Positions 11,282-23,062 of a DNA stretch of 64,000 nucleotides are shown here, in pieces (within the stretch, counting starts at the first letter, position 1; each line of letters opens with the position of its first letter). The DNA is from Thermoplasmata archaeon. Its GTDB lineage: Archaea; Thermoplasmatota; Thermoplasmata; Thermoplasmatales; GCA-001856825. Both the position numbers and the translations under genes were made by a program. The DNA lies in the NCBI GenBank assembly GCA_021797855.1, contig JAJZYX010000001.1, positions 1 through 64,000 on the forward strand. Direction: 5' to 3'. The notes under the pieces were generated by a model that ran no database searches, had not been told where the DNA came from, and saw nothing but the letters and a program-made list of their open reading frames with translations.

Positions 11282-12099
11282 CGGAAAGCATTAAGATTCT
11301 GGAAGAGGGTGGCAACTTTATCAGGTTCGAAGTCAACGACGTGTCTCCAGCGTATGCCAACCTCCTGAGGAGGACACTCATCAACGACATTCCAAAACTT
11401 GCCATATCAAAGGTCAACTTCCATCACGGAGAGATAAGACAGGAAGGGGACAAGGTGTATTCCTCCCTCACATCATTGTTTGACGAGGTTATAGCCTCAA
11501 GGCTCGGTATGATCCCCCTTCCCACTGACCTCAAGATGAACGAGAGGGAGACGTGCAGCTGTGGCGGTGCTGGCTGCTCTCTATGCACAGTGAACTACAG
11601 CATCTTCGTAGTGGGACCAAAGAAGGTCACCAGCGGAGACCTAATTGCGGTCGGGGACTCGAAGATGTCGCCGATCGACAAGGACATCCCGATAGTGGAA
11701 CTCAACGAGAGGCAGGCCATGATGCTGGATGCAGAAGCCTACATGGGCAGGGCCAGGGAGCATGCAAGATTTCAGACCACAAGCGGAGTTTCATACAGAT
11801 ACGGCAGAGAGCTTAAAGTATCGGCAAGGGAACCGGAGCTTGATGAGATAATAAAGAACTCCCCGAAGAACGTCCTCAGGAAAAACGACAAGGAAGTCGT
11901 TTTCACGGCAGATTTCCCGTCCAAGTACCTAAGCAAGCTATACAGAATGGACTCGCTAGAAGTGAAGGAGGACGAGAGAAGATTTATATTCTATTTTGAA
12001 ACTGATGGCAGCCTCACGCCGAGACAGGTCCTTGATTATGCCCTCTCTCGAATAAGGGATAGACTGTCAGGAATTGTCGAGAACGTGCCAGGCGAATGA
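11278..12099 (+). CDS. rpoD: DNA-directed RNA polymerase subunit D
   Basis: 273 residues, archaeal counterpart of Rpb3 and the bacterial alpha N-terminal domain. Dimerisation-domain signature [22 protein letters not shown], and the inserted cysteine-rich module [11 protein letters not shown] (C-x-C-x4-C-x2-C), which in several archaea holds a 4Fe-4S cluster; other archaea lack it. Assembles with subunit L to nucleate RNA polymerase. Overlaps the S11 stop by ATGA. In many archaea L18e, L13 and S9 follow; here SRP54 follows instead. Confidence 0.96.
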
Positions 12100-19137: not shown

Positions 19138-19212
19138 TAGCGGGGGATGGATTTGAACCATCGGTCTACGGGTTATGAGCCCGTCGGGATACCCTGGCTA
19201 CCCCACCCCGCT
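19138..19212 (-). tRNA. Initiator tRNA-Met (CAT)
   Basis: 75 nt without encoded CCA. The acceptor stem AGCGGGG pairs with CCCCGCT, giving the A1-U72 pair typical of archaeal and eukaryotic initiators. The anticodon arm is ACGGG-CTCATAA-CCCGT with the three G-C pairs that mark initiators, and the T arm is GATGG-TTCAAAT-CCATC. Discriminator A. No intron. An AT-rich TATA-like stretch lies about 25-35 bases upstream (around 19237-19249, minus strand). Confidence 0.96.
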
Positions 19213-19410: not shown

Positions 19411-20331
19411 GTGAAATCAAAGAACATACTTGTGACTGGCGGAGCTGGGTTCATAGGAAGCAATCTTGTAGATAAGCTCAGAAGGGATAATGATGTGGTA
19501 ATTCTTGACAACCTTCATACCGGAAAGAAAGAGAACATAGCTGCCGCAATAGAGGAAGGGGTTAAGTTTGTCAAAGGTGACTCCAAGAACATTGCGAAAA
19601 TGAAAGAAGATTTCGATTTCGTATTTCATCTAGGCATATACTCAGCTTCACCCATGTACAGGGAAAATCCGAACCTCGTGGGGGAAGTAGTCGAAGGCAT
19701 GACAAACATTCTTGAATACTGCAAAGCATCAGGGACGCCTTTAGTATTTGCATCCACCTCCTCTATCTATAACGGCATTGAGCCTCCCCACCGGGAAGAT
19801 GTTGTTCCAGGGGTAACTGACTTCTATACTGAGGCGAGAATCGCCTGCGAAAGACTTGGAAAATTGTATTCCGATCTGTTCGAAGTCAACGTATCGGCAA
19901 TGAGGTTCTTTTCCGTTTATGGCTACAACGACATAGGGAAGGGGAAATACGCCAACCTGATCACACAGTTTATGGAATCCATGATCAAGGGGAAGAAGCC
20001 AGTCATATACGGGAACGGAGAGCAAAAGAGGGACTTCATATTCGTGACAGATGTCGTCGATGCGCTTTTAAAGGCTACCGCAACTAGTGGGTTCAACATA
20101 TACAACGTTGGAACAGGAAAGAGCTATACACTCAACGATGCGGTAAAGAAACTTCAAGAAGTCACAGGGAAAAGAATTAGTCCGAAGTATGTGAAGATGC
20201 CTGTGAAGAATTACGTTATGACAACGCTTGCCGACACGTCAAAAGCGAGAAAAGAAATAGGATTCTCTGCTAAAATAAGTCTTGACGAAGGTATGAGGAA
20301 ACTCTACTCCAGCATCACTGCTAAGATCTAA
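19411..20331 (+). CDS. NAD-dependent NDP-sugar epimerase/dehydratase (extended SDR)
   Basis: 306 residues with the Rossmann motif TGGAGFIGSNLVDKL, D-N-L-H after beta2, FHLGIYSASPM, the Ser/Thr cluster FASTSSIYNG, MRFFSVYG and the substrate-region GNGEQKRDFIFVTDVVDALL. These mark UDP-glucose 4-epimerase-like enzymes that supply sugars for glycans. The usual YxxxK catalytic motif reads FYTEARIACERL, so the lysine is replaced by arginine. GTG start at 19411. A sugar supplier for AglB-dependent glycosylation is plausible but not shown. Confidence 0.85.
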   Translation: MKSKNILVTGGAGFIGSNLVDKLRRDNDVVILDNLHTGKKENIAAAIEEGVKFVKGDSKNIAKMKEDFDFVFHLGIYSASPMYRENPNLVGEVVEGMTNILEYCKASGTPLVFASTSSIYNGIEPPHREDVVPGVTDFYTEARIACERLGKLYSDLFEVNVSAMRFFSVYGYNDIGKGKYANLITQFMESMIKGKKPVIYGNGEQKRDFIFVTDVVDALLKATATSGFNIYNVGTGKSYTLNDAVKKLQEVTGKRISPKYVKMPVKNYVMTTLADTSKARKEIGFSAKISLDEGMRKLYSSITAKI

Positions 20332-20441: not shown

Positions 20442-20541
20442 TGCCGGGGCTGGGATTTGAACCCAGGGCCTCCGGATTTCTCCGGTTAATTAATCATTAC
20501 TCCCTATGAGTCCGGCGCTATTCCTGCTAAGCCACCCCGGC
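20442..20541 (-). tRNA. Elongator tRNA-Met (CAT) with 27-nt intron
   Basis: 100 nt precursor. Acceptor GCCGGGG/CCCCGGC, D arm GCT-N10-AGC, anticodon stem CCGGA/TCCGG, T arm CTGGG-TTCAAAT-CCCAG, discriminator A, no CCA. Between the anticodon stem halves there are 34 bases; removing 27 (20478-20504) at the canonical 37/38 position leaves the loop CTCATAA with CAT anticodon. The body matches archaeal elongator tRNA-Met, often intron-containing. The first 15 bases overlap the end of the eS1 gene on the same strand. Confidence 0.94.
20478..20504 (-). other. tRNA-Met intron (27 nt)
   Basis: Inserted after nucleotide 37, the commonest archaeal position. Bases at the 3' part (GGAG) can pair with CTC of the anticodon loop, as expected for a bulge-helix-bulge recognised by the splicing endonuclease encoded at 54529-55266. 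Exact cut sites are inferred from the conserved tRNA fold. Confidence 0.85.
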
Positions 20542-21204
20542 TTCAGACTCTTCCTCTTCTTCCACCGGCTCTTCCTCGGGTTTCTCTTCTTCCCTTGTGA
20601 TCTCCTTAGTAGGCTCAAAAATACTGGAACTTCTGATCTCGATTTTCCTCGCCGGGTAGATAACTTTGATCTGGTCGTATAAATCGTTGTATATCTGCGG
20701 GGAAAACATGTAGACCACAAACTGGCTTATGGGTTGTTCCCTTGCTTTTGCTTTCAGAAATTCAGCTATCTTATTTCTTATTCCTGTTTCCACATTGTTT
20801 ATTACTTTCCTATCCACAACAACCAGAGGCTTTATCCTGATGTATTTATTGTCAGACGTTACAGCATCAACAACCAAATCTATACGTGTCTTTCTCCTTC
20901 TGATCATCCTTCTGATGTAGTCCTGGTTTATTTCATGCCCCTCGAATTCCGTATACGCCTTGTCCCCCTCAGTTTTCGTGACCCTGAAGAAGAGTTTTAC
21001 GTGGCTTTGCTTGTAATCTCCCGTTATATCTGACAGTGATGCTTCCGATACCCTTCCTATCATATCTGCCGGAGAGGGAGCTGGAGAACTTCCTATTTCT
21101 TTCTTGCCAAATGAGTCCGTTGCAAGTATCGTGTACCAGCTCTTGGACTTCCATTTATCTTTCACTTTCTTTGCGGCCACTCTGCTTGTTTTCTCCTTAG
21201 CCAA
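20527..21204 (-). CDS. rps1e: 30S ribosomal protein eS1 (S3Ae)
   Basis: 225 residues. Conserved S3Ae segments: KDKWKSKSWYTILATDSFGKKEIGSSPA, GRVSEASLSDITGDY, MIRRRKTRID, and PLVVVDRKVI. The C-terminus is a long Glu/Pro-rich acidic tail. It belongs to the small-subunit platform. TTG start at 21204. The last four codons and the stop (15 bases) lie inside the 5' end of the elongator tRNA-Met gene on the same strand; the TAG stop falls in the tRNA D arm. Confidence 0.95.
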   Translation of the reverse strand: MAKEKTSRVAAKKVKDKWKSKSWYTILATDSFGKKEIGSSPAPSPADMIGRVSEASLSDITGDYKQSHVKLFFRVTKTEGDKAYTEFEGHEINQDYIRRMIRRRKTRIDLVVDAVTSDNKYIRIKPLVVVDRKVINNVETGIRNKIAEFLKAKAREQPISQFVVYMFSPQIYNDLYDQIKVIYPARKIEIRSSSIFEPTKEITREEEKPEEEPVEEEEESEAGVA

Positions 21205-21338
21205 ACACTACCATCTCTTCTATCGGCAACGTTTGAGTTAATAAATACTTTTTTGAATTAGCAGGCTTCATTTTTCCATGGGACCCCGTGGATATCCACA
21301 CCTCATCGATTCTACATCTTACGGTTCCAATTAAGCCC

Positions 21339-21464: not shown

Positions 21465-21487
21465 ACGGATTGTATATCACTTCCAAG

Positions 21488-23062
21488 ATGGTATTAGTCA
21501 GGTTTGAAGCCAGAAAGCTGGTAGAACTGAGCGGTCTCCCTGAAGAGAAGCTTATCAGCGTGCCTTGGCTTCTCGGAGGTGAGGCGCGCAAAGAGAATGG
21601 GGACATCATCATGGAATTCAATCCGGATAGACCGGATCTATATTCAATTCAGGGTGTTACAAGGGCAATAAGGACTTTTGAAGGACTTGAGCATTTTTCC
21701 CGGATCGCAATCAGCAACGAGGATTTTTTCGTAAAATCAGAGCCACCAAAGTACAGACCTTTTTTCACCGTGGGTATAGTCAGAGGTGTGAGAGTGAGGG
21801 GGCTGCTGCCAGAGATTATTGATTTCCAGGAAAAGCTTCACCTGACAATCGGTAGAAACAGAAAATTGTCGTCTATTGGTCTTCATGATCTCAAGAAAGT
21901 GAAGTTTCCGATCACCTACAAGGAGGTGGATAGGGACCAGATGTTTATCCCTCTTGGCGAATCCTCACAGGCGAGGATCAGTGAATTCATGAAATATAGC
22001 AAGAAGGCCATCGAGTACGGGAATCTAGTGGGGGATAACATCCCAGCGTTAATAGACTCGGAAGGGCAGATTTTCTCCCTTCCGCCCATATTGAACTCTT
22101 CGTTGACAACAGTAACGGATGATACAGAAGATATCTTAGTGGATGTTGAAGGAACCTCCCCCGGTGCAGTGGAAAAAACTATTCTTCTCATGCTTACAGC
22201 GCTCTCCTACCCTTCTGGAAGCATATCCACCTTAAAGCTTAATGACTCGATCGCTCCTAAGATAGAACACCAGCAAGTGAATATTTCAAAAAATTCCATT
22301 AAGAGGATGCTTGGTTACAATCTTTCGGACGAGGAAATCAAGACCTCTTTGGATAAAATGGGCTATGGAACGGATGGATTGAAGGTCACGATTCCACCAT
22401 ACAGGACTGACGTCCTTGGGGAGGTGGACATACTTGAAGACGTATTCAAGGGTCTTGGGTACAACAATATAAAGAGAAAGAGGGAAGAGTTCCTTAGCTA
22501 CGGCAGGTCAAATCCTCTGAGAGCATTTGAGACCAAACTGAGAGGCCTCCTCGTAGGGTATAACCTTACAGAAACAGTAAGTAGTGTCCTTGTGAACAGT
22601 AGATTAATTGAGAGCTATGGAATAAATGATGAAATGATTGAGATACTGAACCCAGTCAGTCAGGAACAGGATTCTGTGCGCACCAGGATATCCCCATCGT
22701 TGATGCAGACCTTTGCTAACAATTTCAGAAATCCGTACCCACAGAGGATCTTTGAAATAGGAAGCGTCTACCGCGAAGGGAAGGAAAGGGATATTCTTGG
22801 AATTGCGATTGCAGATAGGACAGCCTCTTTCTCTGAAATTAAGGGAGTATTCGTTGGTCTTCTGGAGGACCTAGGTATAGGGAAATATGATATCGTGAGA
22901 ACGGAGGAAGCTATGTACGTTCCCGGACGCGTGGCAGGTATAGAAGCAAACGGTAAAAGACTGGGGTTCTTCGGAGAAGTCCATCCAAAGATCCTCAAAA
23001 ACATAGGGATAAAGATGCCAGTTGCAATGGGAGAGCTCGACATCCAAGAGGTTATGCTTTGA
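21488..23062 (+). CDS. pheT: Phenylalanyl-tRNA synthetase beta subunit
   Basis: 524 residues from ATG 21488; an in-frame TTG at 21470 is closer to the TATA-like box than a leaderless start would be. Archaeal PheT architecture: N-terminal segment ending in MEFNPDRPDLYSIQGVTRAIR, B3/B4 region with GLHDLKKVKFPI, a B5 domain (NISKNSIKRMLGYNLSDEEI, VTIPPYRTDVLGEVDILEDV) and a catalytic-like C-terminal domain (RIFEIGSVYREG, GEVHPKILKNIGI). It supplies the editing and structural half of the (alpha-beta)2 enzyme. pheS is not in the window. The stop overlaps the TTG start of the next gene. Confidence 0.94.
   Translation: MVLVRFEARKLVELSGLPEEKLISVPWLLGGEARKENGDIIMEFNPDRPDLYSIQGVTRAIRTFEGLEHFSRIAISNEDFFVKSEPPKYRPFFTVGIVRGVRVRGLLPEIIDFQEKLHLTIGRNRKLSSIGLHDLKKVKFPITYKEVDRDQMFIPLGESSQARISEFMKYSKKAIEYGNLVGDNIPALIDSEGQIFSLPPILNSSLTTVTDDTEDILVDVEGTSPGAVEKTILLMLTALSYPSGSISTLKLNDSIAPKIEHQQVNISKNSIKRMLGYNLSDEEIKTSLDKMGYGTDGLKVTIPPYRTDVLGEVDILEDVFKGLGYNNIKRKREEFLSYGRSNPLRAFETKLRGLLVGYNLTETVSSVLVNSRLIESYGINDEMIEILNPVSQEQDSVRTRISPSLMQTFANNFRNPYPQRIFEIGSVYREGKERDILGIAIADRTASFSEIKGVFVGLLEDLGIGKYDIVRTEEAMYVPGRVAGIEANGKRLGFFGEVHPKILKNIGIKMPVAMGELDIQEVML

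Follow-up and report, generated by a model that had tools for sequence, protein, structure and literature searches.

In one genus of uncultured, acid-loving archaea, the gene for an essential ribosomal protein, eS1 (rps1e/S3ae), has its stop codon within the sole elongator tRNA-Met gene. This eS1–tRNA-Met architecture is real, conserved and unusual. It is best explained, with a probability that we put at roughly 0.6, as a dicistron in which eS1 would have captured a stop from the tRNA behind it, and in which the two products of the shared RNA would arise consecutively rather than at once, translation coming first and the cut later. This explanation draws on the anatomy of the locus, its conservation, the missing promoter motif of the tRNA, its single-copy state and the finding that RNase P RNA and a Pelota-like protein are encoded in the genus, from which we infer the transcript, the cut and the order of events.

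Both genes lie on the minus strand of the window, by which we mean the whole 64,000-nt stretch of DNA that was analysed. The eS1 coding sequence (20527..21204, read 21204 to 20527) encodes 225 aa from a TTG start, and its open reading frame matches PF01015 (1.5e-60; 204.5 bits against a cut-off of 29.3) and the NCBIfam S3ae model NF003142 (229 against 198). Its 3' end runs into the 5' end of an elongator tRNA-Met(CAU) gene (20442..20541, read 20541 to 20442), which scores 59.6 bits against a gathering threshold of 29 for Rfam RF00005 and was missed by a default run of ARAGORN owing to its intron. This intron, placed after A37 with boundaries deduced from the anticodon stem, would span 27 nt (20478..20504, minus strand), and its length differs between congeners. 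The shared 15 nt (20541 to 20527, minus strand) read GCC GGG GTG GCT TAG and are at once the last four eS1 codons (A-G-V-A) with the stop and tRNA bases 1-15; the TAG itself (20529-20527) forms U13-A14-G15 of the D arm. The initial annotation had described just this arrangement, with both genes on the same strand, and its coordinates prove exact against RF00005 and PF01015, the strand being minus. The tRNA start coincides with an eS1 codon boundary (…GAA|GCC), so that the expected RNase P cut, between 20542 and 20541, would separate A-1, the end of the GAA codon, from G+1. The tRNA, with a CTCATA loop, is the elongator and neither initiator nor Ile2; the initiator is a separate gene (AGCGGGG…, 19138-19212), as is an Ile2-like CAT tRNA (GGGGCCG…). 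Folding of the tRNA-Met alone predicts an acceptor stem of 7 bp. The upstream neighbour is divergent (21470-23062, plus strand) and the downstream neighbour convergent (19411-20331), which leaves eS1 and tRNA-Met as an isolated two-gene unit.

Junctions downstream of eS1 were read in 69 genomes of the order. The 15-nt overlap, with TAG at tRNA bases 13-15, is identical in each of the nine congeneric genomes that yielded an eS1 gene, as are the TTG start and the frame. The proteins of these nine are 80-88% identical and their tails carry in-frame indels; an overlap retained through 12-20% divergence and such indels reflects neither chance nor sequencing error. In the two genomes of the sister genus, by contrast, the junction reads …GTT TAA AA|GCCGGGG, with a normal TAA stop 2 nt before the tRNA and no overlap. 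The comparison among relatives that the initial annotation had proposed thus upholds the overlap within the genus and bounds it at the sister genus. Across the order, tRNA-Met lies at most 19 nt from eS1 at 67 of the 69 junctions and is absent at two; in 58 junctions outside the genus the gap from eS1 stop to tRNA is 1-19 nt, and in this genus alone has eS1 lost its own stop. In other orders of the class, tRNA-Met follows eS1 in 27 of 38 genomes at a distance of 1 to ~145 nt (20 recovered with a pattern script and seven by eye from the sequence), and none of the 38 has an overlap of the two genes. Judged from this distribution, the order eS1 then tRNA-Met is ancient, and adjacency throughout the order and class, together with an overlap limited to one genus, indicates an old dicistron in which the overlap arose once, and later.

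How this event came about is suggested by the tRNA genes themselves. In G025, the best genome of the genus (93% complete, 45 tRNAs), TAG occupies tRNA bases 13-15 in 26 of 45 genes and bases 8-10 in 19, such that an upstream frame would meet a stop within 15 nt in 28 of the 45 if it entered in phase 0 and in 20 if in phase 1, against ~5-7 per phase expected from shuffled tRNAs. tRNA genes are thus reservoirs of stop codons, and genes upstream of them are free to lose their own. Both ingredients of such a capture are found at eS1, namely relatives whose eS1 stops on its own shortly ahead of the tRNA, and a stop in frame within the tRNA. The sister-genus tRNA already contains GCTTAG, yet eS1 stops ahead of it, and U13 likewise occurs without overlap in several other genera, which makes it probable that the tRNA had its stop triplet before the overlap arose. 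Because tRNA 5' ends often supply a TAG and the sister genus retains a normal stop, the overlap can be explained as a near-neutral stop loss, after which eS1, without a stop of its own, would terminate on the TAG that the D arm provides anyway (“stop capture”). Neutral capture, at the cost of a few extra residues, is our preferred account of the origin. On the same grounds, a regulatory role, such as the link between tRNA output and the making of ribosomal protein that the initial annotation suggested, is possible rather than established, and any coupling of translation to tRNA release is probably a side effect that is tolerated after stop capture, and not an evolved regulator.

The overlap at eS1 has company, which the initial annotation had not foreseen. 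Three further tRNA genes emerged from a scan as carriers of their upstream neighbour's stop, and these were checked over the 15 genomes of the family. TGT (PF01702) ends on a TAG at bases 4-6 of tRNA-Cys(GCA) in 11 of 12 readable junctions, the other having a 1-nt overlap; Tpt1/KptA, an RNA 2'-phosphotransferase (PF01885), ends at bases 8-10 of tRNA-Ala(TGC) in 12 of 14, with a 1-nt overlap in two; and a small protein (~60-80 aa) ends at bases 8-10 of tRNA-Ser(GCT) in all nine congeners read, the distance elsewhere being -1 to +9 nt. The small protein is 96-100% conserved across the genus, and searches of Pfam and NCBIfam gave no match to it. The TGT before tRNA-Cys fits the bacterial-type Tgt model (TIGR00430) above its cut-off, and most genomes of the family have a separate gene of ~598 aa with weak TGT similarity. 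In G025, RpoN stops 1-2 nt ahead of tRNA-Pro(GGG) (G025:C4 near 215995). Promoter-like motifs are weak for tRNA-Ala and absent for tRNA-Ser and tRNA-Pro(GGG); that of tRNA-Cys is strong (9.4 and 8.6 bits at -39) and lies within TGT, where it seems to be a tRNA promoter embedded in coding sequence. Since the loci differ in this way, the conflict between message and tRNA would not be alike at each. That tRNA-embedded stops are a family device of gene expression, by which tRNA maturation would turn several translation-related messages (those of eS1, Tpt1/KptA, TGT and the small protein) into non-stop RNA, cap protein yield and couple tRNA supply to translation, we consider unlikely.

A more local form of regulation has its own evidence. 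The overlap could be an evolved switch, in which a conserved leader element, GAGCCGGTG (20563..20571, minus strand; eS1 codons E-P-V), would mispair with the acceptor stem and so set the division between eS1 and tRNA-Met. In bacteria, a leader that pairs close to the cut site is known to act as an anti-determinant of RNase P (PMC9433436). With the native 60-nt leader, the predicted pairing of the acceptor stem falls from 0.93-1.0 for the tRNA alone to 0.00-0.29 in all congeners, whereas for other tRNAs of two genomes the predicted median is 0.98, with 7 of 63 below 0.3; GAGCCGGTG is predicted to be able to pair with either strand of the stem. Its E-P-V codons are almost invariant in the genus, third positions included, and the codons E-P-V-E-E are among the least variable at synonymous positions (rank 4 among 218 windows along eS1). 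Moreover, the Glu codons of the tail are each one change from a stop, and in no congener has a stop been regained. However, 15 of 57 non-overlapping eS1–tRNA junctions likewise fall below 0.3, and synonymous shuffles of the leader are frequently low too; the mispairing is consequently treated as a lead and not as decisive evidence. The nine genomes represent one evolutionary event, the folding leaves out tertiary structure, modification and bound proteins, and conservation of the tail may serve the protein. Taken together, an evolved switch appears distinctly unlikely.

Whether message and tRNA conflict at all depends on how the tRNA is transcribed. A motif model, trained on the sequences that precede 66 other tRNA genes in the window's genome and G025, recovered the archaeal BRE/TATA pattern GGAAAAaaTTAtAa, mostly beginning 35-38 nt before the tRNA. 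The upstream regions of tRNA-Met in the two genomes score 0.65 and -2.2 bits, which is at background level and lower than all 66 others (median 8.7), though the model, a consensus learned from the same genomes, would miss an unusual or far-upstream promoter. Those of the congeners score -3.4 to 4.6 bits, and the AT content upstream of tRNA-Met is 0.36-0.40 against mostly 0.6-0.8 for other tRNAs. The BRE/TATA-like eS1 promoter CAAAAAAG-TATTTATTAA (21238..21255, minus strand) is, on the other hand, unchanged in nine genomes, while the sequence immediately upstream of it varies. A tRNA on the same strand as eS1 and without a promoter-like motif of its own, as would be expected of an archaeal mRNA–tRNA dicistron, together with an invariant eS1 promoter, argues that the tRNA probably derives from the eS1 transcript; a shared transcript of the two-gene unit from the eS1 promoter is likely on these motif comparisons. 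The eS1 promoter and leader (21195-21275, minus strand) are nearly invariant across the genus; within them, the predicted transcription start lies near the ATG of a 5-codon frame, ATG GTA GTG TTT GGC TAA, that overlaps the eS1 TTG start.

Scores above 5 bits (5-8 bits) do occur 200-300 nt upstream of tRNA-Met, within eS1, in most congeners, and an internal promoter with a long leader may lie there. Were the tRNA transcribed apart from such a promoter, with the eS1 message ending or being protected so that its stop is kept, there would be no conflict. A promoter-like motif does precede most other tRNAs, and the tRNA-Cys that overlaps TGT has its strong motif within coding sequence, as such a reading would have it. 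The eS1 junction, however, is at or near background in most congeners, which share no strong match near the tRNA, and the short gaps at the 58 other junctions of the order leave no room for a promoter outside the coding sequence. We regard separate transcription as quite improbable. Among the other genomes of the order, a run of at least five T's occurs in 13 of the 39 linkers of 6 nt or longer between eS1 and tRNA-Met; shuffling the letters of these linkers gives an expectation of 3.6, and none of 5000 shuffles reaches 13, related genomes not being independent. The archaeal polymerase terminates at oligo-T, and partial termination may therefore serve these lineages to apportion transcripts between eS1 message and tRNA precursor.

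If the dicistron is transcribed as one RNA, its two products would compete. A ribosome standing on the stop would cover tRNA bases 1 to ~25, which makes translation and tRNA folding mutually exclusive for any one molecule at any one moment. Ribosomes passing over or standing on the stop would keep these bases open, and eS1 would be made with its stop present; the tRNA would then fold, RNase P would cut before G1 and the tRNA would be freed. This cut should leave an eS1 message without a stop, ending in a whole GAA codon, on which later ribosomes would need rescue by Pelota/ABCE1. The eS1 message would thus be time-limited, and release of the tRNA would await a gap in translation. RNase P RNA is encoded in 8 of 11 genomes of the genus; 10 of the 11 encode a Pelota-like protein, whose scores lie under the NCBIfam cut-off. 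The initial annotation had proposed a non-stop message from RNase P cutting, and in part this reading gains support, from the encoded RNase P RNA and from a tRNA-Met that lacks the promoter-like motif of most tRNAs in the same genomes; the non-stop consequence of cutting is well grounded in the layout of the junction. A yield from each transcript of one tRNA and between a few and some tens of eS1 proteins would, to an order of magnitude, match what a cell typically needs. Against the dicistron with consecutive products, it seems wasteful that the message of so abundant a ribosomal protein should be time-limited. Completion of a stop by polyadenylation is not available, since A's added after …GAA read AAA, a lysine codon, and the mitochondrial repair route cannot work. 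It is very improbable that RNase P itself makes the mature eS1 3' end, with the TAG rarely used and a normal product four residues shorter (…E-S-E) released by Pelota/ABCE1, for despite a cut exactly on a codon boundary, an acidic, low-complexity C-terminal tail that varies ahead of its last residues and the message ends formed by tRNA excision in human mitochondria (PMC9674279), a complete stop is encoded, A-tailing would only add lysines and rescue in each round would be costly for an abundant protein.

The eS1-linked gene is the only elongator tRNA-Met in the checked genomes of the genus, apart from a remnant in G034 and a copy in G027; G025 has one elongator tRNA-Met, one initiator and one Ile2-like gene. 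Most extra matches to the anticodon arm, considered as further copies, were rejected as chance matches within protein genes, the exceptions being the degraded G034 remnant and the G027 copy at a contig edge. In G034 (G034:C16:90000-106000, 11314-11975), a truncated tyrosine-recombinase-like ORF leads into a degraded eS1 C-terminal fragment with the tRNA-Met remnant, and the intact eS1–tRNA-Met lies ~10.7 kb further upstream; the junction seems to have served an integrated element that brought along a replacement 3' end. In G027 (G027:C59, 1-115), a second eS1 tail with an intact tRNA-Met is followed by different downstream sequence, and may be an element copy, a strain variant or an assembly branch.

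If RNase P does cut here, essential cellular genes would carry built-in non-stop messages of a kind known mainly from mitochondria, and the locus would offer a natural system for the competition between translation and tRNA processing on one RNA, as well as for the use of Pelota in archaea, which to our knowledge have no tmRNA. The locus also cautions against gene calling that cuts coding sequences back to the edge of a tRNA. In a literature search chiefly of freely accessible papers, we found no published precedent in cellular genomes. The closest kind is tRNA punctuation together with cotranscribed archaeal tRNAs, of which the eS1–tRNA-Met architecture would be a variant without precedent in that literature. 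Among the archaea, the S9 operon of Haloarcula includes a cotranscribed tRNA-Leu. As in human mitochondrial DNA, where message ends are formed through tRNA excision, a tRNA directly flanks the coding end, and an RNase P cut would set the 3' end of the message and could yield non-stop messages in need of a rescue factor (PMC9674279). Unlike there, the genome is that of a cellular archaeon, the full TAG lies inside the tRNA, polyadenylation makes no stop at eS1 and the unit is a dicistron instead of one genome-wide transcript. The available portions of two archaeal reports describe tRNAs without a proximal TSS in H. volcanii (PMC4983044) and a tRNA-Lys in a 5'-UTR in T. kodakarensis (PMC4247193); these resemble the present case in that the tRNA shares a transcript, here a probable one, with other genes and is freed by processing, and differ in that those portions describe no upstream stop in a tRNA 5' end. 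Finally, unidirectional gene overlaps in prokaryotes are reported to arise via disruption and replacement of stop codons (PMC3887535). At eS1, too, an upstream gene has lost its stop and adopted one in the gene downstream, but the gene that supplies it here encodes a tRNA, and maturation of this tRNA would cut the RNA within the overlap.
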